NCBI RefSeq assembly: GCF_026559675.1
Contig: NZ_CP092891.1
Location: 3,596,001 to 3,660,000 of the forward strand
DNA: 64,000 bases
Origin: Microbacterium oxydans
Lineage (GTDB): Bacteria; Actinomycetota; Actinomycetes; Actinomycetales; Microbacteriaceae
Direction of reading: 5' to 3'
Below are positions 40,348 to 52,034 of the stretch, piece by piece. The notes beneath the pieces were generated by a model, which saw only the letters and a program-made list of their open reading frames with translations, was not told the DNA's origin and did no database searches. The translations under genes were made by a program, and so were the position numbers. How positions within the stretch are numbered: the first letter of the stretch is position 1; the number at the start of each line of letters is the position of its first letter.

Positions 40348-41349
40348 ATGTTCACCGGAGCCTCCTTCCCCCTCGGACCGTTCACGCCGTACGACGGCAA
40401 TCCCATCCTGCGCCCGCGCGGCGACAGCTGGGAGTCGGCCAACCTTTACAACCCGGCCGCGCTCGTCGACGGCGACGAGGTCGTGCTGCTCTACCGCGCA
40501 CACGCCGACGACATCATCTCCCACATCGGCATCGCCCGCTCCCGGGACGGCGTCACCTTCACCCGCGAGGATGCGCCGATCCTCTCGCCGTCGGAGGACT
40601 ACGAGCGGTACGGCTGCGAGGACCCGCGCATCGCGCTGATCGAGGGCACCTACTACCTCACCTACACGGGCTGGGACCGGCGCAGCGCGCAGCTCTGCCT
40701 GGCGACCTCGACCGACCTGCGCACGTGGACCAAGCACGGGCCGCTGTTCGACGACTTCGACACCTTCAAGACAATGGACCCCCGTGGATTCAACTGGTCG
40801 AAGGCCGGCGTCATCGTGCCGCAGCGGATGCACGGGAAGTGGTGGATGTACTTCGGTGAGGGCGCGATCTACTGGGCGACCAGCGATGACCTCATCCACT
40901 GGACACCGGGCACCCCCGACACCGAGCCGATGTACTCGCCGACGCCCGGCACCTGGGACGAGGCCCTCGTCGAGATCGGCACCTCGCCCGTGGTGACCGA
41001 CAACGGACTGCTGCTCTTCCTCACGAACGGTGCGACCCGCATCGTGCACGAGGACGGCTCGGTCGACGTCGACTACCGCTGCGGGCAGATCGCCATCGAT
41101 CCGGATGAGCCGACGACGGTCATCGCCCGCCTGCAGGAGCCGTGGCTGCGCCCGCAGACCTTCGAGGACATGCACGGGCTGGTCTCGAACGTGACCTTCG
41201 TGGAGGGACTCGTGAAGTTCCAGGAGAAGTGGTTCGCGTACTACGGGCAGTCCGACACGACGCTGGCCGTGGCGATCCACGATCCCGCCGAGCCGTGGGG
41301 TCGCGCGCTGCGCGACGGCGCCGATTCCCGCGTGGATGCCGGGGAGTGA
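40348..41349 (+). CDS. GH130-type mannoside phosphorylase / glycosidase
   Basis: A 333-residue five-bladed beta-propeller enzyme lacking a signal peptide, hence cytoplasmic. The GH130 hallmarks GNPILRP, LYNPAALVDGDEVVLLYRA (shortened here to YNPAALVDG) and YGCEDPRI are present. Members cleave or phosphorolyse beta-mannosides such as Man-GlcNAc, Man-Glc or beta-1,2-mannan fragments. Placed after the importer, it likely processes the imported oligosaccharide. Starts at ATG 40348, with AAAGGGACCCC before it. Confidence 0.88.
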   Translation: MFTGASFPLGPFTPYDGNPILRPRGDSWESANLYNPAALVDGDEVVLLYRAHADDIISHIGIARSRDGVTFTREDAPILSPSEDYERYGCEDPRIALIEGTYYLTYTGWDRRSAQLCLATSTDLRTWTKHGPLFDDFDTFKTMDPRGFNWSKAGVIVPQRMHGKWWMYFGEGAIYWATSDDLIHWTPGTPDTEPMYSPTPGTWDEALVEIGTSPVVTDNGLLLFLTNGATRIVHEDGSVDVDYRCGQIAIDPDEPTTVIARLQEPWLRPQTFEDMHGLVSNVTFVEGLVKFQEKWFAYYGQSDTTLAVAIHDPAEPWGRALRDGADSRVDAGE

Positions 41350-41353
41350 CGCC

Positions 41354-43408
41354 ATGGACGCCTCTCGGCGCACGTTCCTGACCTTCGCGGCAGCCGCCTC
41401 CGCCCTGGCGCTCGTCCCGGTGGATGCGGCCGTCGGTGCGACGACCCCGACCACCGGCGCCGGTGTCGCCACCGGGACCGGGTCGCACCCGCTCGAGGCC
41501 GATCGGCGCGGTCGGCTGACGAACCTCGCCCATCTGCGTTTCCTCCTCGCCGAGGTGCCGGTCGCGGCGAGCGCGGCGCACACGACGTTCGGCATCGACT
41601 CGCAGCCGACCGTGCGCGCGCCCTGGACCTACGCCGACACCGACGGTGCGGGCGGATATCGTCCGGTCGGCGGGGGCACCCGCGATGCCGTCACCGGCTA
41701 CTGGTCGCAGGGCGCCTACAACGCCGACGACATCGCCCGCGCGGCGATCGTGTTCCTCCGCGACTGGAGGGCGACGGGCGATACCCGGAGCCGCGACGAG
41801 GCGCGGGATGTGCTCCGCTCGCTGGCCTTCCTGCAGACGACCTCCGGCCCGAACGCCGGGCGCGTGGTGCTGTGGCAGCAGGAGGACGGCACCCTGACCC
41901 CCAGCGCGATCCCGGTCGAGCTGCCCGACCCCTCGGACTCGGCCGAGTCGTACTGGCTCGCCCGGTCGGTCTGGGCGTTCGGCGAGGGCCATGCGGCCTT
42001 CCGTCGGGCGGACCCGGCGTTCGCGGCGTTCCTCCTCGACCGGCTGCACCTGTGCCTGGATGCGCTCGGGCGGGAATCGCTCTCGCGCGCCGGGCAGTGG
42101 GTGCGCAGCGACGGGCGGCGGCTCCCCGCCTGGCTCATCGCGGGCGGTGCGGATGCCACGGCAGAGGCCATGCTCGGCCTCGCCGCGGCCACCGAGGCGG
42201 GCGACTCCCGCAGCCGCAAGGCCCTGCTGACGTACGGGGAGGGTGTGGCCGCGATGGCCACCGACCCGGCGCGGGGCTGGCCGTTCGGGGCGGTGCTGCC
42301 GTGGACGGGTTCGCTCGGGTTCTGGCACGCGTGGGGTGCCGCCGCACCGGAGGCTCTCGCCCGCGCCGGGGCCCTGCTCCGGCGCCGGGACTGGTCCTCC
42401 GCCGCACTCGCGGATGCCGGACGCTTCACGCCGCAGGTGCTCGCCGCGGGCGGGCCGCACAACGCGTGGGCGCCGCTTCCAGCCGAGGCGCAGATCGCCT
42501 ACGGCGCGCACGGTCGCGTGGCCGGGGCGCTGCAGGCCGCGGCCGTGGGCGGGGTCGGACTCCGCGCGGTCGCCGGCCTCGCCGCCGGCTGGTTCTTCGG
42601 CGCGAACACGGCGGGGGTGCCGGTGTACGACCCCGCGACGGGTGTGACGTTCGACGGGGTCGAGACCGACGGACGGGTGAACCGCAACTCCGGCGCCGAG
42701 TCGACGATCCACGGCCTGCTCACGATGCAGCTGCTCGACGCGAATCGGGACGTGGCGGAGCTCGCGACGTCGATCACGGGGCTGCGGGCGCACTCGGGCC
42801 TGCGGGTGATCGACGCCGAGACGGCACGGCTCTCTCCCGGCTGCGTCGTGGAGCGTCCCGAGGGCGGCGCCTGGACGGGCGAGGGCAACCTCTCGGGCGG
42901 GGCGTATGTGCGCATCCCTCGCGGCGAGTGGGTCGAGTTCGACGTGACGGAGGCGGGTGGCATCCTGCACGGGCTCGTGTGGCGGCAGGCTGCCGCTGCC
43001 GGCGAGGCGGAGTGGGAGGTGCGCCGCGGGCGTCGCCGGGTGTGGCGCACGCGCACGCCCGCGGGCGGGGCCGGCGACCGCGGGCTCACCGAGGCCGACG
43101 GGATGCTCGTGCCGCAGCTCCTCGGCGGCGATCTGCCGGAGACCGCGGTGACGGTGCGCTGCACGAGTCGCGGCGACGTGCGCCTGGATGCGCTGGTGAT
43201 CCAGCCGCGGGTCGTGAGCGCCGTGTACGCGACGACCTCGGGAGCCGCCGTGCTCTATGCGAACGGCGCACGGAAGGACCAGCGGGTCGCTCCGCTCGCA
43301 CCCGGCGAGGGGCGAGCTTACGAGGCGGACGGCTCTCCGGACGGCCGGGCGACCCAGGGCGGTCGGGTTCGCGTGCGCGGAACGGGCTTCACGATCACCC
43401 GCGGCTGA
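41354..43408 (+). CDS. Tat-exported alpha-helical-barrel glycosidase-like protein
   Basis: A 684-residue exported protein. The twin-arginine signal SRRTFLTFAAAA (RR at 5-6) and hydrophobic core end near ALA/VGA at about residue 29. Residues about 50-480 are alpha-helical with repeated W/H/D-rich turns (ESYWLARSVWAFGEG, GGPHNAWAPL), resembling an (alpha/alpha)6 six-hairpin glycosidase. Residues about 500-684 form a beta-rich carbohydrate-binding-like domain. I cannot assign a GH family. Four bases after the GH130 stop, so it is in the same operon and likely acts outside on the polysaccharide that the importer serves. Confidence 0.75.
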   Translation: MDASRRTFLTFAAAASALALVPVDAAVGATTPTTGAGVATGTGSHPLEADRRGRLTNLAHLRFLLAEVPVAASAAHTTFGIDSQPTVRAPWTYADTDGAGGYRPVGGGTRDAVTGYWSQGAYNADDIARAAIVFLRDWRATGDTRSRDEARDVLRSLAFLQTTSGPNAGRVVLWQQEDGTLTPSAIPVELPDPSDSAESYWLARSVWAFGEGHAAFRRADPAFAAFLLDRLHLCLDALGRESLSRAGQWVRSDGRRLPAWLIAGGADATAEAMLGLAAATEAGDSRSRKALLTYGEGVAAMATDPARGWPFGAVLPWTGSLGFWHAWGAAAPEALARAGALLRRRDWSSAALADAGRFTPQVLAAGGPHNAWAPLPAEAQIAYGAHGRVAGALQAAAVGGVGLRAVAGLAAGWFFGANTAGVPVYDPATGVTFDGVETDGRVNRNSGAESTIHGLLTMQLLDANRDVAELATSITGLRAHSGLRVIDAETARLSPGCVVERPEGGAWTGEGNLSGGAYVRIPRGEWVEFDVTEAGGILHGLVWRQAAAAGEAEWEVRRGRRRVWRTRTPAGGAGDRGLTEADGMLVPQLLGGDLPETAVTVRCTSRGDVRLDALVIQPRVVSAVYATTSGAAVLYANGARKDQRVAPLAPGEGRAYEADGSPDGRATQGGRVRVRGTGFTITRG

Positions 43409-43471
43409 GGCCCGCCGAACTCGATCGCCGTCGGGGTATCCGATGCCGCGCCGACGGAGTAGCGTGCCCGC

Positions 43472-44437
43472 ATGGCGATCGCGACGGAGACGATGGACTG
43501 GCTGCTCGACGGGGATCCCGCGCTGCGCTGGCAGGTCGAGCGCGATCTGCTGCGGGAGCCCGAGGAGGTGTGGCAGGCGACGCGGGCACGGGTCGCCTCC
43601 GAGGGCTTCGGCGCCGCGCTCCTCGCCCGGCAGGACGATGACGGTCAGTGGGCCGGAGGCGCCTTCTTCCCGGCAGGGTTCTTCGGCAGTGCGGAGGCGG
43701 AGGAGCCGGGGCAGCCGTGGACGGCCACGACCTGGTCGCTGAACGATCTGCGCGAATGGGGCGTGGACGCCGCGGTGCTCGGCGACACCGCGGAGCGCCT
43801 GGCGCAGAACAGTCGATGGGAGTACGACGACCTGCCCTACTGGGGCGGCGAGGTCGACGTGTGCATCAACGCCTACACGCTGGCGAACGGCGCCTGGCTG
43901 GGTGCCGACGTCTCCGCGCTCGCCCGCTGGTTCCCCGCCCACCGGCTGGAGGACGGCGGATGGAACTGCGAGGCGGAGGAGGGCGACTCGGTGCGGTCGT
44001 CCTTCCACTCCACGCTCAACGCCCTGCGCGGGATGCTCGCCTACGAGCGACTCACCGGCGACACGTCGTTGCGGGAGGCACGGCACTCGGGCGAGGAGTA
44101 CCTGCTGCGGCGACGGCTGCTGTACCGCGAGTCGACCGGAGAGCAGGTCGGTCCCTTCGTCGGGCGCTTCGTGTATCCGAACCGCCATCGGTACAGCGCG
44201 ATGACGGCCCTGGACCACTTCCGCGAGGCGTCGCTCGTCGAGGGCCGTGCCCCCGACGAGCGGATCGCGGATGCCGTCGAGCTGGTGCGTGCCGCGCGAC
44301 GGCCCGACGGCTCGTGGACGCAGGGCGCTCCGCTCGCCGGTCGCACCTGGTTCCCGGTCGATGCCGGGGAGGGCCATCCCTCCCGCTGGCTCACGCTGAT
44401 CGGCACGCGCGTCCTCGACTGGGCCGGCGGCGCCTGA
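43472..44437 (+). CDS. Squalene-cyclase/prenyltransferase-fold hypothetical protein
   Basis: A 321-residue soluble protein rich in alternating helices, with repeated GG-W/QW-like turns (LEDGGWNCEAEEGDS, RRPDGSWTQG) that recall the alpha/alpha toroid of squalene cyclases and prenyltransferases. The catalytic D-x-D-D motif of cyclases is absent. TAGCGT (43460-43465) six bases before ATG 43472 suggests its own leaderless promoter rather than membership of the preceding operon. Function unknown. Confidence 0.75.
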   Translation: MAIATETMDWLLDGDPALRWQVERDLLREPEEVWQATRARVASEGFGAALLARQDDDGQWAGGAFFPAGFFGSAEAEEPGQPWTATTWSLNDLREWGVDAAVLGDTAERLAQNSRWEYDDLPYWGGEVDVCINAYTLANGAWLGADVSALARWFPAHRLEDGGWNCEAEEGDSVRSSFHSTLNALRGMLAYERLTGDTSLREARHSGEEYLLRRRLLYRESTGEQVGPFVGRFVYPNRHRYSAMTALDHFREASLVEGRAPDERIADAVELVRAARRPDGSWTQGAPLAGRTWFPVDAGEGHPSRWLTLIGTRVLDWAGGA

Positions 44438-44459
44438 ACCGAGAGCCCCTCGACGGGAG

Positions 44460-44484
44460 CAGCATCCCGACATGCTGTTCTTTT
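44460..44484 (+). terminator. Rho-independent-type terminator within the repeat
   Basis: CAGCAT (44460-44465) pairs with ATGCTG (44472-44477) around a six-base loop, followed by TTCTTTT. It follows the stop of the cyclase-fold gene by 20 bases and would end that transcript. An identical copy lies at 47213-47237. Confidence 0.65.
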
Positions 44485-44510
44485 GAGTTATTCAAATGAC
44501 GGGGTACACT
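44482..44510 (+). promoter_or_regulatory. Duplicated Fur-box promoter driving the inserted gene
   Basis: Palindrome TTTGAGTTATTCAAA (44482-44496) overlaps a TTGAGT -35 (44483-44488). A TACACT -10 (44505-44510) follows after 16 bases, and the ATG is six bases on. Identical to the promoter of the Fur-family gene, so transcription of the inserted TPR gene should respond to the same regulator. Confidence 0.75.
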
Positions 44511-44516
44511 CGAGGC

Positions 44517-44564
44517 ATGGAGACAGAACTCGACTCGGCGCTTCGCTCGGTCACGCGCGGCTAG
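44517..44564 (+). pseudogene. Truncated 5' end of Fur-family gene (15 codons)
   Basis: ATG and nine further codons identical to the Fur-family gene at 47270, then five foreign codons and TAG: METELDSALR followed by SVTRG. It marks the left junction of the inserted unit and would act as a short upstream reading frame ahead of the TPR gene. Confidence 0.85.
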
Positions 44565-44597
44565 GCAGCGGGAGTTGCTAGAACCAGTCGAGTTCGA

Positions 44598-47141
44598 ATG
44601 CTCCTTGCGGCAACTGTGCTCTGGTCTGGTTTGATGATCATCATGGACAGCATCGTGGCCGCATTGGCGTCGGGGCTTTCCGCGACCGTCTTTTTGATCG
44701 GGTTTAGCTCGATCAGGTTACGATCGGAGCGCGACCGGGCGCTGAACCGATCAGATGCGGTGTTCGCGGATTTAGCGAAGGCGGCGCATTCGGGTTCGGC
44801 GATTAGCGACGCCGAGGTCGCCGCTGCGGCGGACGGCCTGAAGGAAGCAGAAACGCGCGACCCGATCGGCCGATGGACACTGTTCACGACGATCGGCATC
44901 GGCCTCACGATGGCCGCGGTTGCGATCACGGCAGGAGCGCGATCGGGGCTCGCTTTCAATCCGAACCCGTTCGCGTGGTCCGCGGAAGCTGCGAGTCTCT
45001 CCTTTCTCGTCGTAGCGAACGCGACGATAGTAGCTCTGGGCGTTGCCGACTATCTCTGGGTCGTCAGAGATCTTGATCGACGACTGAAGGGCAGCCCGGT
45101 GGCCAAAGCAACCCATGCAATCGACCGGCTCCGGCAAAGAGACTGGGAAGTGGCCGTATCACTAGCTGAGGAGCTACGGGCTCAGCTCCCTTCGTGGCCC
45201 TGGGTACGTGCTTTTCTCGCGCATGCCCTCGCCTCAGCCGGCAAACGGGACCGGGCACTGACTGAGATTGAAACGGCTCGAAGACTCGAACCGTCAAATT
45301 CATGGTGGAACTTGGCGCATGTCGAGTTGCTACTCGAAGAAGATCAGTTCTCAGATGCTTTGGATCTCATCAGCACAGTCGAGGCGTCCGTAGTTGGACA
45401 GGCCGCGGTCGTAAGCCTTCGCGGCGCAGCGCTATACGGCCTGGGACAACGCGAAGAGGCAATCACGGAGTTCAACTCGGCCATTCGGCTCGATCCACGG
45501 GACGCCGAACACCGCTACCGCCGTGGTCGCGCAATCATGGATGTGTCACGCCACACGACGCTCGGCGAACCAACGGCAGCTCTGGCCGAGATCATCCTCG
45601 ATGACGGCGAACGCGTAGCTGTGCGCGCAGTAATGCGCGCCGGTCACAAGCGGCTGAGAGCACGAGACGCGCTGAGGGCTGTGGAAGACTTCACGTTCGC
45701 GCTCGCTCAGCGCGAAGACGCCGACACATACTTATGGCGAGGTACTGCACGCTACCAAGCGAACCAGATAGAGCTCGCTGAAGAGGACTTCCAGCAGGCA
45801 ACGGCGCTCGGCGCCAAGGCAGACTCAGTTCATCGGCGTCGCGCTGCCGGCTTAGCGGCATCCGGGATGGTATCCGCCGCCGAAGAGGAGCTTGGTCGAG
45901 CAATCAACACCAGAGCAGAGCCTCGCGACTACTTCCAGCGGGGCATGATTCGCCTCCAGCTGCGTGACTTCGATGGAGCTCTCCAAGACCTCGAACACGT
46001 TCTCTTGTTAGAGCCTGATGATCTGGACGCAGCGGCTCATCGCGCCGAAGCCCTGGCCTTCCTGAAGCGGAGCGACGAATCGCAGACCGCATTCGAAGCT
46101 GCCGTGGCATCAGGATTGCATCTCGCCCACACTTACGAGGTGTGGCTACAGTCATTGCTGTCGTCTGACCAGGCCTCCGCCGCTGAAGCAGTAGTCGAAC
46201 GGGCGCTCGGCGAAGAGCTGGATGATAATTCAAGGACACGAATCCTCACCATCGCTGGATCGATCTATGCGCGGCTACGCCTCTTCAACCGAGCATTGGA
46301 GGCGTTCGAAAACGCCGATACGCTGAGCCCCGGTTCGCCGAACGTGGCGTATCGGCGCGCAGTATGCCACCTCGATATGGGCGAGCCGGATGTTGCTCTC
46401 GAACTACTCGACCGGGCAGTTGCTGAGCCCTGGAGCATGCGGTTCGCTGCGTACGCGACAAGGTCGTCCTTGCATCGATCACAAGGTCGTTTCCCTGCGG
46501 CATTTGCTGACATCGAATCTGCCCTAAGTTTGCAGCCAGGGCACGCGCGTCTTCTCGTCACTCGAGGATGCCTTTCGATGGGCGTAGGCAAGATGGCCGA
46601 AGCGCTCACGGACTTGAACCATGCTCTCGAGTTAGAGCCCGACAGCAAGTCTGCGCTGTCCCATCGCCTCCCCGCTCGAATCGCTACTGGAGACATCGCA
46701 GGCGCAAAAGAAGACCTTGAACGCCTCGAAGCTCTCAAACCAAGCGATCGAAGAATTCTGATCGCGCGAGACGAGTATTGGAGCGCCGTAGCGGACTGGC
46801 CGCAGGTTGTAGCGGTGCGTCGCCAGCTTCTTGATCTAGCCCCTGAGAACTCAGACGCGGCTTGGAGCCTCGCCGCAGCCTACGTCAACTCGGATCAGCC
46901 AGCCGAGGCCGAAGCACTCTTTGGAATCCTCATGTCGAAGGACAGTGAAGACATGCGAGCGGCTCTCAGCCATGCTGTAGCGATCAGCATGCAAGGTCGC
47001 GCGGAGGAAGCTCAACGACGCTTCGCGAGCATCAGTCACACCCACGGATCGGCAGCAGCGCACTGGATGACGTCTTCACTCAGGCCCGACTTACTGCCTC
47101 GATACGACCAAGTCATGGCTGACTGGGCTTCAGCCACCTAG
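44598..47141 (+). CDS. Membrane-anchored TPR-repeat protein, cargo of the insertion
   Basis: An 847-residue protein. The N-terminal 160 residues hold four predicted membrane helices (about 2-18, 20-40, 93-114, 129-156). The rest is a chain of roughly 15-18 TPR units, for example ALFGLGQ-type turns such as GLGQREEAITEFNSAIRLDP, ALQDLEHVLLLEPDD and ALTDLNHALELEPDS. The TPR solenoid would lie in the cytoplasm and bind protein partners. No enzymatic motif is seen. Codon use differs from neighbours, with TTA at 45732 and 46632. ATG 44598 is the first start; ATG 44634 or 44643 would shorten the first helix. Transcribed from the duplicated Fur-box promoter. Stops at 47141, only 67 bases before the right repeat. 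Confidence 0.88.
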   Translation: MLLAATVLWSGLMIIMDSIVAALASGLSATVFLIGFSSIRLRSERDRALNRSDAVFADLAKAAHSGSAISDAEVAAAADGLKEAETRDPIGRWTLFTTIGIGLTMAAVAITAGARSGLAFNPNPFAWSAEAASLSFLVVANATIVALGVADYLWVVRDLDRRLKGSPVAKATHAIDRLRQRDWEVAVSLAEELRAQLPSWPWVRAFLAHALASAGKRDRALTEIETARRLEPSNSWWNLAHVELLLEEDQFSDALDLISTVEASVVGQAAVVSLRGAALYGLGQREEAITEFNSAIRLDPRDAEHRYRRGRAIMDVSRHTTLGEPTAALAEIILDDGERVAVRAVMRAGHKRLRARDALRAVEDFTFALAQREDADTYLWRGTARYQANQIELAEEDFQQATALGAKADSVHRRRAAGLAASGMVSAAEEELGRAINTRAEPRDYFQRGMIRLQLRDFDGALQDLEHVLLLEPDDLDAAAHRAEALAFLKRSDESQTAFEAAVASGLHLAHTYEVWLQSLLSSDQASAAEAVVERALGEELDDNSRTRILTIAGSIYARLRLFNRALEAFENADTLSPGSPNVAYRRAVCHLDMGEPDVALELLDRAVAEPWSMRFAAYATRSSLHRSQGRFPAAFADIESALSLQPGHARLLVTRGCLSMGVGKMAEALTDLNHALELEPDSKSALSHRLPARIATGDIAGAKEDLERLEALKPSDRRILIARDEYWSAVADWPQVVAVRRQLLDLAPENSDAAWSLAAAYVNSDQPAEAEALFGILMSKDSEDMRAALSHAVAISMQGRAEEAQRRFASISHTHGSAAAHWMTSSLRPDLLPRYDQVMADWASAT

Positions 47142-47208
47142 CGTCCGCGTTCATCGGCGCTCCCATACACTCGCCATCCATGTCGTCGAACTCCGCGGAT
47201 CCATTCTT

Positions 47209-47299
47209 GGAGCAGCATCCCGACATGCTGTTCTTTTGAGTTATTCAAATGACGGGGTACACTCGAGGCATGGAGACAGAACTCGACTCGGCGCTTCGC
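47209..47299. repeat. 91-bp direct repeat, right copy
   Basis: Exact copy of 44456-44546 joined to the intact Fur-family gene, supplying its terminator, operator, promoter and first ten codons. Confidence 0.97.
47235..47263 (+). promoter_or_regulatory. Fur-box promoter of the Fur-family/catalase operon
   Basis: TTTGAGTTATTCAAA (47235-47249) covers the -35 region and TACACT (47258-47263) is the -10, six bases before ATG 47270. Position is suited to autorepression by the Fur-family protein and co-regulation of katA. Confidence 0.78.
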
Positions 47300-47692
47300 G
47301 ATGCCGGGCTTCGGGCGACCGCGGGCCGCGTCGCCGTTCTCGAGGCACTGGACTCCATGGCCCACACGGATGCGGAGCGGATCTACCGCGCCGTGTCCGA
47401 CGTGCTTCCGACCACGTCGATCCAGTCGGTGCACAACATCCTCGCGGACCTGACGACGGCGGGTCTCATCCGCCGGATCGAACCGGCAGGTTCCGCGGCG
47501 CTCTACGAGCGACGTATCCACGACAACCACCACCACGTCGTCTGCACCTCCTGCGGTGCCGTCGGCGATGTGGACTGCGTCGTGGGCGAAGCTCCGTGTC
47601 TCACCCCGTCCTCGACGGGGGGATTCACCGTCCAGACAGCCGAAGTCACCTTCTGGGGCCTGTGCCCCAGTTGCCAGAACGCCGCGCAATAG
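47270..47692 (+). CDS. Fur/PerR-family regulator next to catalase
   Basis: A 140-residue metal-dependent repressor. The N-terminal winged helix (about 10-80) and the metal-binding HDNHHHVVCTSCG near residues 82-94 are typical; a second C-x-x-C (GLCPSCQ) is near the C-terminus and would hold structural zinc. Linkage with katA and the histidine/aspartate set suggest a peroxide-sensing PerR/FurA role rather than iron uptake control. The message appears leaderless. The first ten codons lie inside the direct repeat. Confidence 0.92.
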   Translation: METELDSALRDAGLRATAGRVAVLEALDSMAHTDAERIYRAVSDVLPTTSIQSVHNILADLTTAGLIRRIEPAGSAALYERRIHDNHHHVVCTSCGAVGDVDCVVGEAPCLTPSSTGGFTVQTAEVTFWGLCPSCQNAAQ

Positions 47693-47758
47693 CCGACCGC
47701 TGATCGCCCATCCACGGATGGGGGTATTCGTCGCGCCCGCGCGGAGAAGGAGAACACC

Positions 47759-49210
47759 ATGACGAAACCTGCCACCACCACGCAGGCCGGAGCCCCGATC
47801 GCGAGTGACACCCACTCGCTGACGGTCGGCGCCGACGGCCCCACGGTCCTGCACGACCACCACCTCGTCGAGAAGATCGCCGCGTTCAACCGCGAGCGCG
47901 TGCCGGAGCGCAACCCGCACGCGAAGGGCGGCGGTGCGTTCGGCGAGTTCGTCGTCACGGAAGACGTCTCGGCGTACACCCGGGCGGCGGTCTTCCAGCA
48001 GGGCGCGAAGAGCGAGGCGCTCATCCGCTTCTCCTCGGTCGCCGGCGAGCAGGGCTCCCCCGACACCTGGCGCGACGTGCGCGGCTTCTCGCTGCGGCTG
48101 TACTCGGAGGAGGGCAACCTCGACATCGTCGGCAACAACACCCCGACCTTCTTCCTGCGCGACGCGATCAAGTTCCCCGACTTCATCCACTCGCAGAAGC
48201 GCCTGGGCGACTCGGGACTCCGCGACCCCGACATGCAGTGGGACTTCTGGACGCTCTCCCCGGAGACCGCGCACCAGGTGACCTATCTCATGGGCGACCG
48301 CGGGCTCCCGCGCAGCTGGCGCCACATGAACGGCTACGGCTCGCACACCTTCTCCTGGGTGAACGCGGAGGGCGAGCTCTTCTGGATGCGCTACCACTTC
48401 GTGTCGCACCAGGGCGTCGAGGCCATGGGCGCCGAGGAGGCGCAGCAGCTCGCCGGGTCCGACGCCGACTACTACCGGCGCGACCTGTTCGATGCGATCC
48501 AGCGGGGCGAGCACCCCTCGTGGGACCTGTACGTGCAGATCATGCCCTACGACGAGGCGAAGTCGTACCGGTTCAACCCGTTCGACCTCACCAAGACGAT
48601 CTCGCTCAAGGACTACCCGCGCATCAAGGTCGGCACGCTGACCCTGAACCGGAACCCGGAGAACTTCTTCGCCCAGATCGAGCAGGCCGGCTTCTCGCCG
48701 GGGAACCAGGTGCCCGGCACCGGCATCTCGCCGGACAAGATGCTGATGGGTCGCATCTTCGCGTACCCGGATGCGCAGCGTCACCGCATCGGGGCCAACT
48801 ACAACCAGCTGCCGGTGAACCAGCCGCACGCCGCCGAGGCGCGCAACTACCAGCACGAGGGGGCGATGCGGTACCAGTACAACGGGGCGGCGCACCGCAC
48901 CTACCAGCCGAACTCGTTCGGTGCGGCCGGCGGCCCCGAGGCCGACCCGTCGAAGGGGATCGAGGCGAACTGGGAGGCCGATGGCGAGCTCGTCCGCTCG
49001 GCGGCCACGCTGCACGCCGAGGACGACGACTTCGGGCAGCCGGGCACGCTCTACCGCGAGGTCTTCGACGACGAGCAGCGCGCCCGGTTCATCGAGACGC
49101 TCATCGGGCAGGGGCGTTCGATCACGGTCGATGAGATCCGCGAGCGCTTCTTCCAGTACTGGACGAACGTGGACGCCACGCTCGGAGCGGCCCTGCGCAC
49201 CCAGGTGTGA
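47759..49210 (+). CDS. katA: Monofunctional haem catalase
   Basis: A 483-residue small-subunit catalase that splits hydrogen peroxide to water and oxygen. The distal histidine H54 is in [14 protein letters not shown], the asparagine in the [11 protein letters not shown] region is present, and the proximal haem ligand Y336 is in [13 protein letters not shown]. No C-terminal flavodoxin-like domain, as expected for this clade. GGAGAAGGAGAA precedes ATG 47759. It is separated from the Fur-family gene by 66 bases and likely co-transcribed. Confidence 0.96.
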
Positions 49211-49243
49211 TCCCTGATCGGCCGGGCTTCCTCGTCCGGCCGA

Positions 49244-49708
49244 TCACGCGGACGCGCTGACATCTCCTGCGACGCGGCGTGCGGTGGCCGAGGTCCCGCG
49301 CGTCGCGTCGTACTGCGTGCGCGACTCCTCGATCGCGGGGTGGTTCGCGAGGGCCCAGTCGCCGATGGTCTTGGCGATCGGGATGAGGGTGCCGCCGAGG
49401 TCGGTGAGCTCGTACTCCACGCGCGGCGGGACCTCCGCGTAGGCGGTGCGACTGATCAGTCCGTCGCGTTCGAGCTGGCGGAGGGTGAGCGTCAGCATCC
49501 GCTGCGAGATGCCGGGGATGTGTCGGAGCAGCTCGCTGAAGCGGAGCCGGTCGTGCCGCAGCGTGGCGATGACCAGGAGCGACCACTTGTCGCCGACGCG
49601 ATCGAGCACCTCGCGGATCGCGCGGCCCGCGCTCTCGTCGAGCTCGCAGGAGCTCTCGTATCCGGGGAATCCGGCGAGCGCGGTCTCGTCGATGTGCGTC
49701 AGTGACAT
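49244..49708 (-). CDS. HxlR-family transcriptional regulator
   Basis: A 154-residue winged-helix protein of the HxlR/MarR-like type. The family cysteine is in YESSCELDES, the HTH is in LRFSELLRHIPGISQRMLTL, and the wing contains VEYELTDLGG. ATG 49708 is chosen because AAAAGG lies seven to twelve bases upstream; ATGs 49732 and 49738 are alternatives. Divergent from a DoxX gene. HxlR proteins often sense reactive electrophiles or quinones through the conserved cysteine, a known pattern for HxlR-DoxX pairs. Confidence 0.9.
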   Translation of the reverse strand: MSLTHIDETALAGFPGYESSCELDESAGRAIREVLDRVGDKWSLLVIATLRHDRLRFSELLRHIPGISQRMLTLTLRQLERDGLISRTAYAEVPPRVEYELTDLGGTLIPIAKTIGDWALANHPAIEESRTQYDATRGTSATARRVAGDVSASA

Positions 49709-49750
49709 CGGTGTGCCTTTTGCAGCGGTCATCCGCATCCTCCATTCTTG

Positions 49751-49765
49751 GTTACTGATCGTAAC
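49751..49765. promoter_or_regulatory. HxlR operator candidate
   Basis: GTTACTGATCGTAAC, a GTTAC-N5-GTAAC inverted repeat, lies midway between the divergent HxlR and DoxX genes. It fits the short symmetric sites bound by HxlR-type regulators. Confidence 0.75.
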
Positions 49766-49788
49766 AAAGACACAGAACGGAACCTCGG

Positions 49789-50154
49789 ATGCTCATCGCA
49801 CTCTGGATCGTCAACGGGCTGCTCGCCCTCGCCATGCTCGGCGGCGGCTTCATGAAGCTCGTCACCCCGAAGGCGACGCTCGCCGAACGCGGGATGGCCT
49901 GGACGGAGGACTTCTCCGCCGGGACGATCAAAGCCATCGCGGCGCTCGAGGTGATCGGCGCGTTCGGGCTCATCCTGCCGCTGGCCACCGGCATCGCCCC
50001 GATCCTCGCCGCGCTCGCCGGCACCGGGATCGCGATCATCATGATCGGCGCGGTCGTCGTGCACCTGCGCCGCAAGGAGTCCGCCGCGCCGGCGCTCGTC
50101 CTGGCGGTGCTGGGCGTCGCGAGCGCGGTGCTCGGCTTCCTCGTCGTGCTCTGA
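49789..50154 (+). CDS. DoxX-family membrane protein
   Basis: A 121-residue protein with four membrane helices, including IVNGLLALAMLGGGFMKLV and ALEVIGAFGLILPL, which are characteristic of DoxX-like proteins (the E and G residues of helix three are conserved). Such proteins support redox or thiol stress response in mycobacteria. ATG 49789 follows the operator by 23 bases. Expected to be induced when the adjacent HxlR regulator is inactivated. Confidence 0.88.
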   Translation: MLIALWIVNGLLALAMLGGGFMKLVTPKATLAERGMAWTEDFSAGTIKAIAALEVIGAFGLILPLATGIAPILAALAGTGIAIIMIGAVVVHLRRKESAAPALVLAVLGVASAVLGFLVVL

Positions 50155-51015: not shown

Positions 51016-51561
51016 CTAGACCGCGGAGCTCTCCGCACGCTTGGGCAGCACCCATCCCGCGCGCGGGAAGTGGCAGGTGTAGCCGTTCGGGTACTTGATC
51101 AGGTAGTCCTGGTGCTCCTCCTCGGCCTGCCAGAACGGGCCCTCGGGCTCGATCGTGGTGACGGCCTTGGCGGGCCACAGGCCGGAGGCGTCGACGTCGG
51201 CGATCGTCTCGCGCGCGACGGTCTCCTGCTCGGGGCTGAGCGGGAAGATCGCCGAGCGGTAGCTCGAGCCGATGTCGTTGCCCTGACGGTCCTTGGTGGA
51301 CGGGTCGTGGATCTGGAAGAAGAACGCGAGGATGTCGCGGTACGTCGTCTTGGTCGGGTCGAACACGATCTCCACGGCCTCGGCGTGGCCGGGGTGGTTG
51401 CGGTAGGTCGCGTGGTCGTTCGATCCACCCGTGTAGCCGACCCGGGTGTCGAGCACGCCGGGCTGGCGGCGGATCAGGTCTTCCATGCCCCAGAAGCAGC
51501 CGCCTGCGAGGACGGCCGTCTCGGTCCCGGGCGTGCGGGTGATGGTTCCGGTGTCGGTCAT
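51016..51561 (-). CDS. msrA: Peptide methionine sulfoxide reductase A
   Basis: Reduces the S-epimer of methionine sulfoxide in proteins. The 181-residue enzyme has catalytic C22 in [11 protein letters not shown], and the conserved VGYTGG and PGHAEAVE motifs. The ATG at 51561 overlaps the msrB stop (ATGA), so the two reductases are made together and cover both epimers. Confidence 0.95.
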
Positions 51562-52034
51562 GACTGCTCCTCAGAAGAATCGGTGGTGGGGTTGGCGAAG
51601 AGGGGACTGTAGCGACCGTACCCCTCCTGTTCGAGACTTTCCGCAGGGATGAAGCGGAGGGCCGCGGAGTTCATGCAGTAGCGCAGTCCGCCCGCGTCGC
51701 GAGGACCGTCGTCGAAGACGTGCCCGAGGTGGCTGTCCGCACCGGCGGAGCGCGCTTCGGTGCGCTTCATCCACAGCGAGCGGTCGGTACGGGTGGTCAC
51801 GGCATCCGCCTCGATGGGCTTGGTGAAGCTGGGCCAGCCGGTGCCGCTGTCGAACTTGTCGGTCGACGAGAACAGCGGTTCGCCCGAGACGACGTCGACG
51901 TAGATGCCGTCGTCGTGGTTGTTCCAATAGGCGTTGCGGAAGGGCGGCTCGGTGGCGTCCTGCTGGGTCACCTCGTACTGCAGATGGGTGAGGTCGCTGA
52001 CGGCCTCGGGGGTCTTGGCGTAGTCGTTCGACAT
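51558..52034 (-). CDS. msrB: Peptide methionine sulfoxide reductase B
   Basis: Reduces the R-epimer of methionine sulfoxide. Catalytic C120 lies in [12 protein letters not shown]; other family blocks are [20 protein letters not shown] (shortened: [10 protein letters not shown]), and [10 protein letters not shown]. The zinc-binding C-x-x-C pairs are absent, and the usual resolving cysteine (DSGCGWPSF) is Thr. So this is a non-zinc MsrB probably regenerated directly by thioredoxin. First gene of the msrBA unit. Confidence 0.95.

Follow-up and report, generated by a model that had tools for sequence, protein, structure and literature searches.

Insertion of a foreign TPR gene at the fur gene of Microbacterium oxydans with probable duplication of a 91-bp control region

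How did a single gene come to lie between two identical copies of the start of a Fur-family regulator gene? In the window, by which we mean the whole 64,000-nucleotide stretch of M. oxydans DNA that was analysed, positions 44456–44546 and 47209–47299 form a direct repeat on the forward strand at a spacing of 2,753 bp, and a repeat search confirmed the perfect match that the sequence-only reading had reported, with 91 of 91 bases identical. It was the sole direct-repeat family in 43000–50000 (exact seed of 12, minimum 20 nt); elsewhere in the window one other direct pair of at least 30 nt was found (46 nt at 72% identity), and the genome, a single contig of 3,782,954 bp, contained exactly two matches to the 91-bp repeat and no third. 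For background, 20 stretches of 20 kb, spread over the same genome, were sampled (together 400 kb, around 11%; one of them, L097, contains 3,411 N). They yielded two exact direct pairs when a length of at least 40 bp and a spacing of at least 500 bp were required, one of 716 bp (L095) and one of 59 bp at a spacing of 510 bp (L107), both within open frames that read as repetitive proteins and neither enclosing a distinct insert. An exact match of 91 bp is far beyond chance, and its identity, the two genome copies and the background sample together rule out a chance or low-complexity origin. Of the repetitive stretches themselves, L095 8457–10006 consists of the exact 716-bp direct repeat with 118 bp between copies, in one long repetitive coding region, and L107 13840–14663 has eight exact direct pairs of 40–113 bp clustered in another.

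The DNA between the copies (44547–47208, 2,662 bp, forward strand) is foreign in composition, in keeping with the initial impression of an acquired cargo: its GC content is around 60% vs 65–80% in the surroundings, and GC3 of its gene is 0.63 vs 0.82–0.96 in six neighbouring genes. This gene (44643–47141) encodes a TPR protein of 832 amino acids, counted from the ATG that aligns with its relatives (the listed open reading frame starts at 44598), with N-terminal hydrophobic segments (within residues 1–24, 79–99 and 114–141) and many TPRs. It is preceded by a 96-bp leader (44547–44642) and followed by a 67-bp trailer (47142–47208) that forms the 3′ end of the insert, where the predicted RNA fold was not superior to that of shuffled sequences (z = −0.50) and thus offered no sign of a structure or terminator. 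The description as a one-gene insertion held, as the TPR frame was the sole insert open reading frame of at least 90 amino acids with a Pfam match, five further frames of at least 90 amino acids wholly inside the insert having none. Likewise, neither the open reading frame list nor Pfam pointed to an integrase or transposase in the insert, as the sequence-only reading had stated, or to a gene for replication or mobility. The insert ends (44547–44700 and 47060–47208) are single in their own genome, short weak matches aside.

Relatives with an empty site define the event. The segment 47150–47330 was searched against 295 genomes of the genus, its own included, with the two best candidates scored per genome. 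A strong match (E ≤ 1e-8) to the 5′ end of fur was found in 50 of the 294 other genomes, none of which had a second match, so the idea that other cargo might lie between the same repeats in relatives gained no example. The best 29 of these 50 loci (L006–L034; about 1.5 kb each side, 2.8–3.1 kb each) were compared with the window, and in 29 of 29 both window copies mapped to one single place and the insert was absent. In two genomes, G211 and G060 (L006/L007 in one comparison, L048/L049 in a second), the left flank continued unbroken from 43445 and 43433 through the 91 bp into fur-katA at around 91% identity; the homologue there of the left-flank gene (43472–44437, forward strand, without a Pfam or NCBIfam match) abuts the single-copy site. 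The event therefore added the 2,662-bp insert (44547–47208) and a further copy of the 91-bp target. Close relatives that had the TPR gene without any repeat would have pointed to a local duplication around a pre-existing gene; this is ruled out, since none of the 29 has the gene at the site.

No match to the left-flank gene was present in 25 of the 29 loci, which marks the region immediately 5′ of the fur promoter as a variable junction, with a breakpoint at the upstream edge of fur. Two other arrangements were seen here. G127 has window homology as far as 41313 that meets the fur promoter almost directly, and G023 has window-homologous DNA around 750 bp from that promoter; at this place both genomes lack the two genes of 41336–44437.

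The duplicated unit has the make-up of a control region. It starts with a terminator-like hairpin, which the scan lists in the right copy only and at one site vs 1.7 in shuffled sequences, thus without evidence of function. The palindrome TTTGA-N5-TCAAA that follows was kept in six of six aligned relatives and is a probable Fur operator. After it comes a promoter-like stretch, TTGAGT-16-TACACT, which was conserved less well among the same six; a strict promoter scan called no promoters, this stretch included. The fur ATG (44517 in the left copy) stands six bases past the stretch, a near-leaderless start. As first described, the left copy (44456–44546) ends ten codons into fur, and its frame then runs through five insert codons (SVTRG*) to a stop in the leader, giving a frame of 15 codons before the TPR gene; the leader had no promoter-like match in the strict scan. 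The right copy (47209–47299) runs on, also as described, into an intact fur gene (47270–47692, forward strand; Pfam FUR, with PerR models as the best NCBIfam matches, all under their cut-offs), to which it gives operator, promoter-like stretch and start. A catalase gene (47759–49210, forward strand; Pfam Catalase) lies downstream, and genes at 51016–52034 of the window, which by eye we take to encode the methionine sulfoxide reductases MsrA and MsrB, would make this an oxidative-stress neighbourhood.

By analogy with the mycobacterial fur-catalase system described next, we infer that the left copy should fire into the 15-codon frame and then the TPR gene, and the right copy into fur-katA. With operator, promoter-like stretch and start all inside the duplicated unit, fur-katA retains its control region and a second one falls to the TPR gene, and this retained control together with a Fur-type promoter for the newcomer is probably the reason that the insertion was tolerated. 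In Mycobacterium smegmatis, according to the available part of one report, furA1-katG1 has a leaderless mRNA and a FurA site that overlaps the promoter (PMC12713383). The locus studied here resembles that system in its Fur-type operator over a promoter (the operator being predicted here), its leaderless start and its fur-catalase pair, and differs from it in belonging to another bacterial family, in its catalase (KatG there, Pfam Catalase here) and in having the control unit duplicated around an insert.

The bases of the two copies bear on their origin. Had an element from another species supplied the second copy, foreign bases would be expected in it. The two copies are identical to each other, and their alignment with six close relatives shows differences at 5, 6, 10, 9, 9 and 14 columns; at 5% divergence identity over 91 bp would arise by chance with a probability of around 0.9%. 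Copies that are identical to each other yet 5–14 columns away from relatives indicate a duplication made from own-lineage sequence, and, with the repeat single in the relatives compared, the 91 bp is most simply read as host target sequence duplicated on insertion. A conspecific donor of the 91 bp may likewise explain the identical copies, as may gene conversion after a foreign import. Of the proposal that an element integrates at, and regenerates, a target that it carries, the insertion at the 5′ end of fur and the regeneration of an intact gene stood; that an element carries and re-targets the site was not supported, as no second strong match was found in the 50 genomes and the repeat has the properties of duplicated host sequence.

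The reading that we favour, at about even odds (roughly 0.5), is capture of a linear foreign fragment where the ends of a staggered break were filled in and joined to it, so duplicating the own-lineage 91-bp target. Paired nicks spaced around 91 bp, or a fork collapse of equivalent effect, would produce the stagger, the filling-in of which would create the second target copy; Ku/LigD end joining, a step that we infer, would then link the filled ends to the foreign linear DNA. Since operator, promoter-like stretch and start would all be copied, fur-katA control would be kept and the TPR gene would come under a Fur-type promoter. Such a capture fits the 91/91 identity of two copies only, the single copy in 29 of 29 relatives (two with a contiguous left flank), the own-lineage bases in both copies, and a cargo of GC3 0.63 with almost no TPR relative in the genus. 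It also fits the lack of a terminal inverted repeat in the 60 end bases of the insert, where the best match was 8 bp with a score reached by 325 of 1,000 shuffles. The genome has a Ku gene, over its cut-off, around 110 bp from a LigD-like gene; the LigD polymerase domain, in the portion of the source available to us, fills nucleotide gaps (PMC8656161).

Several points weigh against capture by end joining. No diagnostic mark of end joining is visible at this site, 91 nt is a long stagger, and the insert is a rather neat fit to one gene, although a random fragment need not be. Two pieces of the LigD-like open reading frame match separately without reaching the whole-model cut-off, and one of them contains a single TGA; three further partial LigD matches lie elsewhere in the genome. 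The two TPR relatives with readable loci lack long flanking repeats, and a conspecific donor with the 91 bp, or gene conversion after foreign import, fits the copies as well.

The main rival is Campbell-type entry, in which a circle carrying the TPR gene and a same-species 91-bp piece of the fur promoter would have integrated by a single crossover into the chromosome. It would yield exactly two direct copies around the cargo, and a conspecific donor piece would make them identical, but it needs a prior, unexplained capture of the 91 bp by the circle. The plasmid and phage records searched gave no DNA match to 44440–47320, and with no replication or mobility gene recognised in the insert either, we consider this route unlikely. 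A phage or plasmid element is rejected on similar grounds, there being no such DNA match and no match to the TPR protein among phage proteins or viral contigs; plasmid records gave only partial matches to the protein, below 60% identity, in 35 and 39 records.

One-sided homologous entry is a known route of foreign DNA in transformable bacteria. Here a conspecific or closely related donor would have supplied a linear fragment, with fur promoter sequence at its end, that recombined at fur on the right and was joined illegitimately on the left, which suits one homologous and one illegitimate junction. It needs, however, a donor with the TPR gene directly upstream of fur; none of the 29 fur loci has one, and a search of the 294 other genus genomes (up to three candidates scored in each) gave one weak TPR match only, in G039 (28% identity over residues 14–133, E = 6.7e-4). 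We therefore judge this import improbable, more so than entry of a circle.

Integrase elements integrate in and regenerate a gene end, and the locus resembles them in its flanking direct repeats and restored gene. Both features would follow from site-specific integration in which an integrase acting in trans used the 91 bp as its attachment site, the insert being a cis-mobilisable remnant. Unlike such elements, the insert has no recognised integrase, no site re-use was seen (no second strong copy in the 50 strong-match genomes, with the two best candidates scored in each), and the repeat, with own-lineage bases in both copies, has the character of duplicated host DNA, so that we rate this origin as quite doubtful.

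Transposition in the manner of IS1549 and IS1634 seems less probable again. Elements of this kind are bounded by terminal inverted repeats and code for a transposase, neither of which was found here. The long, variable target duplication is the point of likeness: IS1549 and IS1634 make direct repeats of 8–514 bp, according to the accessible part of PMC2266710. A search with the IS1634-family transposase model (NF033559) gave no match in the M. oxydans genome at E ≤ 0.01, the same search in control genomes giving matches in 6 of 14, one of them over the cut-off; on this result and the missing inverted repeats in the 60 end bases, an IS1634-type origin is rejected. An assembly artefact is the least credible account, given a single-contig genome of 99.96% completeness, the ease with which long reads would span a 2.75-kb unit whose 91-bp repeats enclose unique cargo, and the record of the same TPR protein on three contigs, possibly from one genome held in several databases.

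The sequence-only reading had suggested an undescribed kind of mobile cassette, which is too strong: the available excerpts of three papers (PMC3031569, PMC1643837 and PMC3874152) describe insertion with long target duplication, in print since 2000 under a name that they cite from Nobusato et al. 2000 (Gene 259:99). In these excerpts the target duplications are of the order of 100 bp (PMC3874152), long and variable (PMC3031569), and in Helicobacter pylori the insertions are frequently tied to restriction-modification genes (PMC1643837). The present locus shares with the cases in those excerpts direct repeats of around 100 bp around a cargo, a single copy at the empty site and the lack of a transposase of its own. 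It differs from them in its cargo, which is a single TPR gene in an actinobacterium where those cases carry restriction-modification genes, chiefly in H. pylori, and in that the duplicated segment is a whole operator-promoter-start unit. We take restriction-modification cargo, absent here and replaced by a TPR protein, as typical of the kind and not as part of its definition. The insertion at fur is thus a clean case of a known, if rarely described, kind, to which it adds the duplication of a complete control region. No actinobacterial or single-TPR case was met in the excerpts of this literature, which is no claim that none exists, and no established mechanism was met in them. Where the literature was searched for insertions by end joining that leave duplications on either side, the matches listed were all genome-editing papers. 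In Arabidopsis, the accessible part of one paper describes moved genes with long flanking repeats of host sequence (PMC2869330).

The case extends insertion with long target duplication beyond the restriction-modification genes of those excerpts and into an actinobacterium that has end-joining genes, with empty sites for comparison, and opens a link between end joining and gene capture to testing. Copying of the whole operator-promoter can render such an insertion harmless, since the target operon keeps its control region, and the TPR newcomer may be wired into a peroxide/metal-response regulon.

Relatives of the TPR protein are few. The closest (P0002, 72% identity) is on a 2.7-kb contig, followed by proteins of Agromyces badenianii (P0003, 44%) and Curtobacterium flaccumfaciens (P0004, 43%); among 398 genomes of the family, two more from other genera (G561 and G663) were found at E ≤ 1e-15. 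At order level, 396 genomes added no relative at E ≤ 1e-60, a protein search with a six-row alignment (22 proteins at E ≤ 1e-20) gave no full-length relative beyond P0002–P0004, and searches of contig collections by protein and by alignment gave none; because the genome searches scored two or three candidates per genome, distant relatives could escape them. A defence gene was considered and rejected as the identity of the TPR gene, PADLOC having no match for the protein studied here (P0001); nor did it match P0003 or the G561 relative, and P0004 and the G663 relative matched a generic TPR model.

In G561 and G663 the TPR gene lies directly downstream of genes that we take, from their proteins by eye, to be nrdI-nrdE-nrdF. 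This position in two genera (L046 and L047) suggests a shared hotspot or a functional link. In 23 other nrdF loci compared (4 for G561 and 19 for G663; 22 more nrdF-bearing genomes of the second genus lay outside the comparison), shared sequence stops within a few bases of the nrdF stop codon, making the position downstream of nrdF also a variable junction, and no TPR match followed nrdF within the stretch examined. Neither nrdF-linked relative has long direct repeats around the TPR gene, two weak pairs that straddle it in L046 (20–24 nt at 79–85% identity) being taken as chance, and the long duplication is therefore a property of this one insertion. It is a long shot that the TPR gene is a minimal self-contained mobile unit that moves bare, makes target duplications of around 100 bp by an unknown enzyme route, and so gains a host stress promoter while sparing the host gene; if it were one, its patchy presence, after nrdF in two genera and at fur here, would reflect such jumps.

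Another gene piece is duplicated at the variable junction downstream of nrdF, in G521. There, a partial nrdF copy without the gene end lies downstream of the intact nrdF (L080, 5936–6245 and 7306–7616; 90–93% identical), and between the two stands a gene that, by eye, we presume to be TetR-like.
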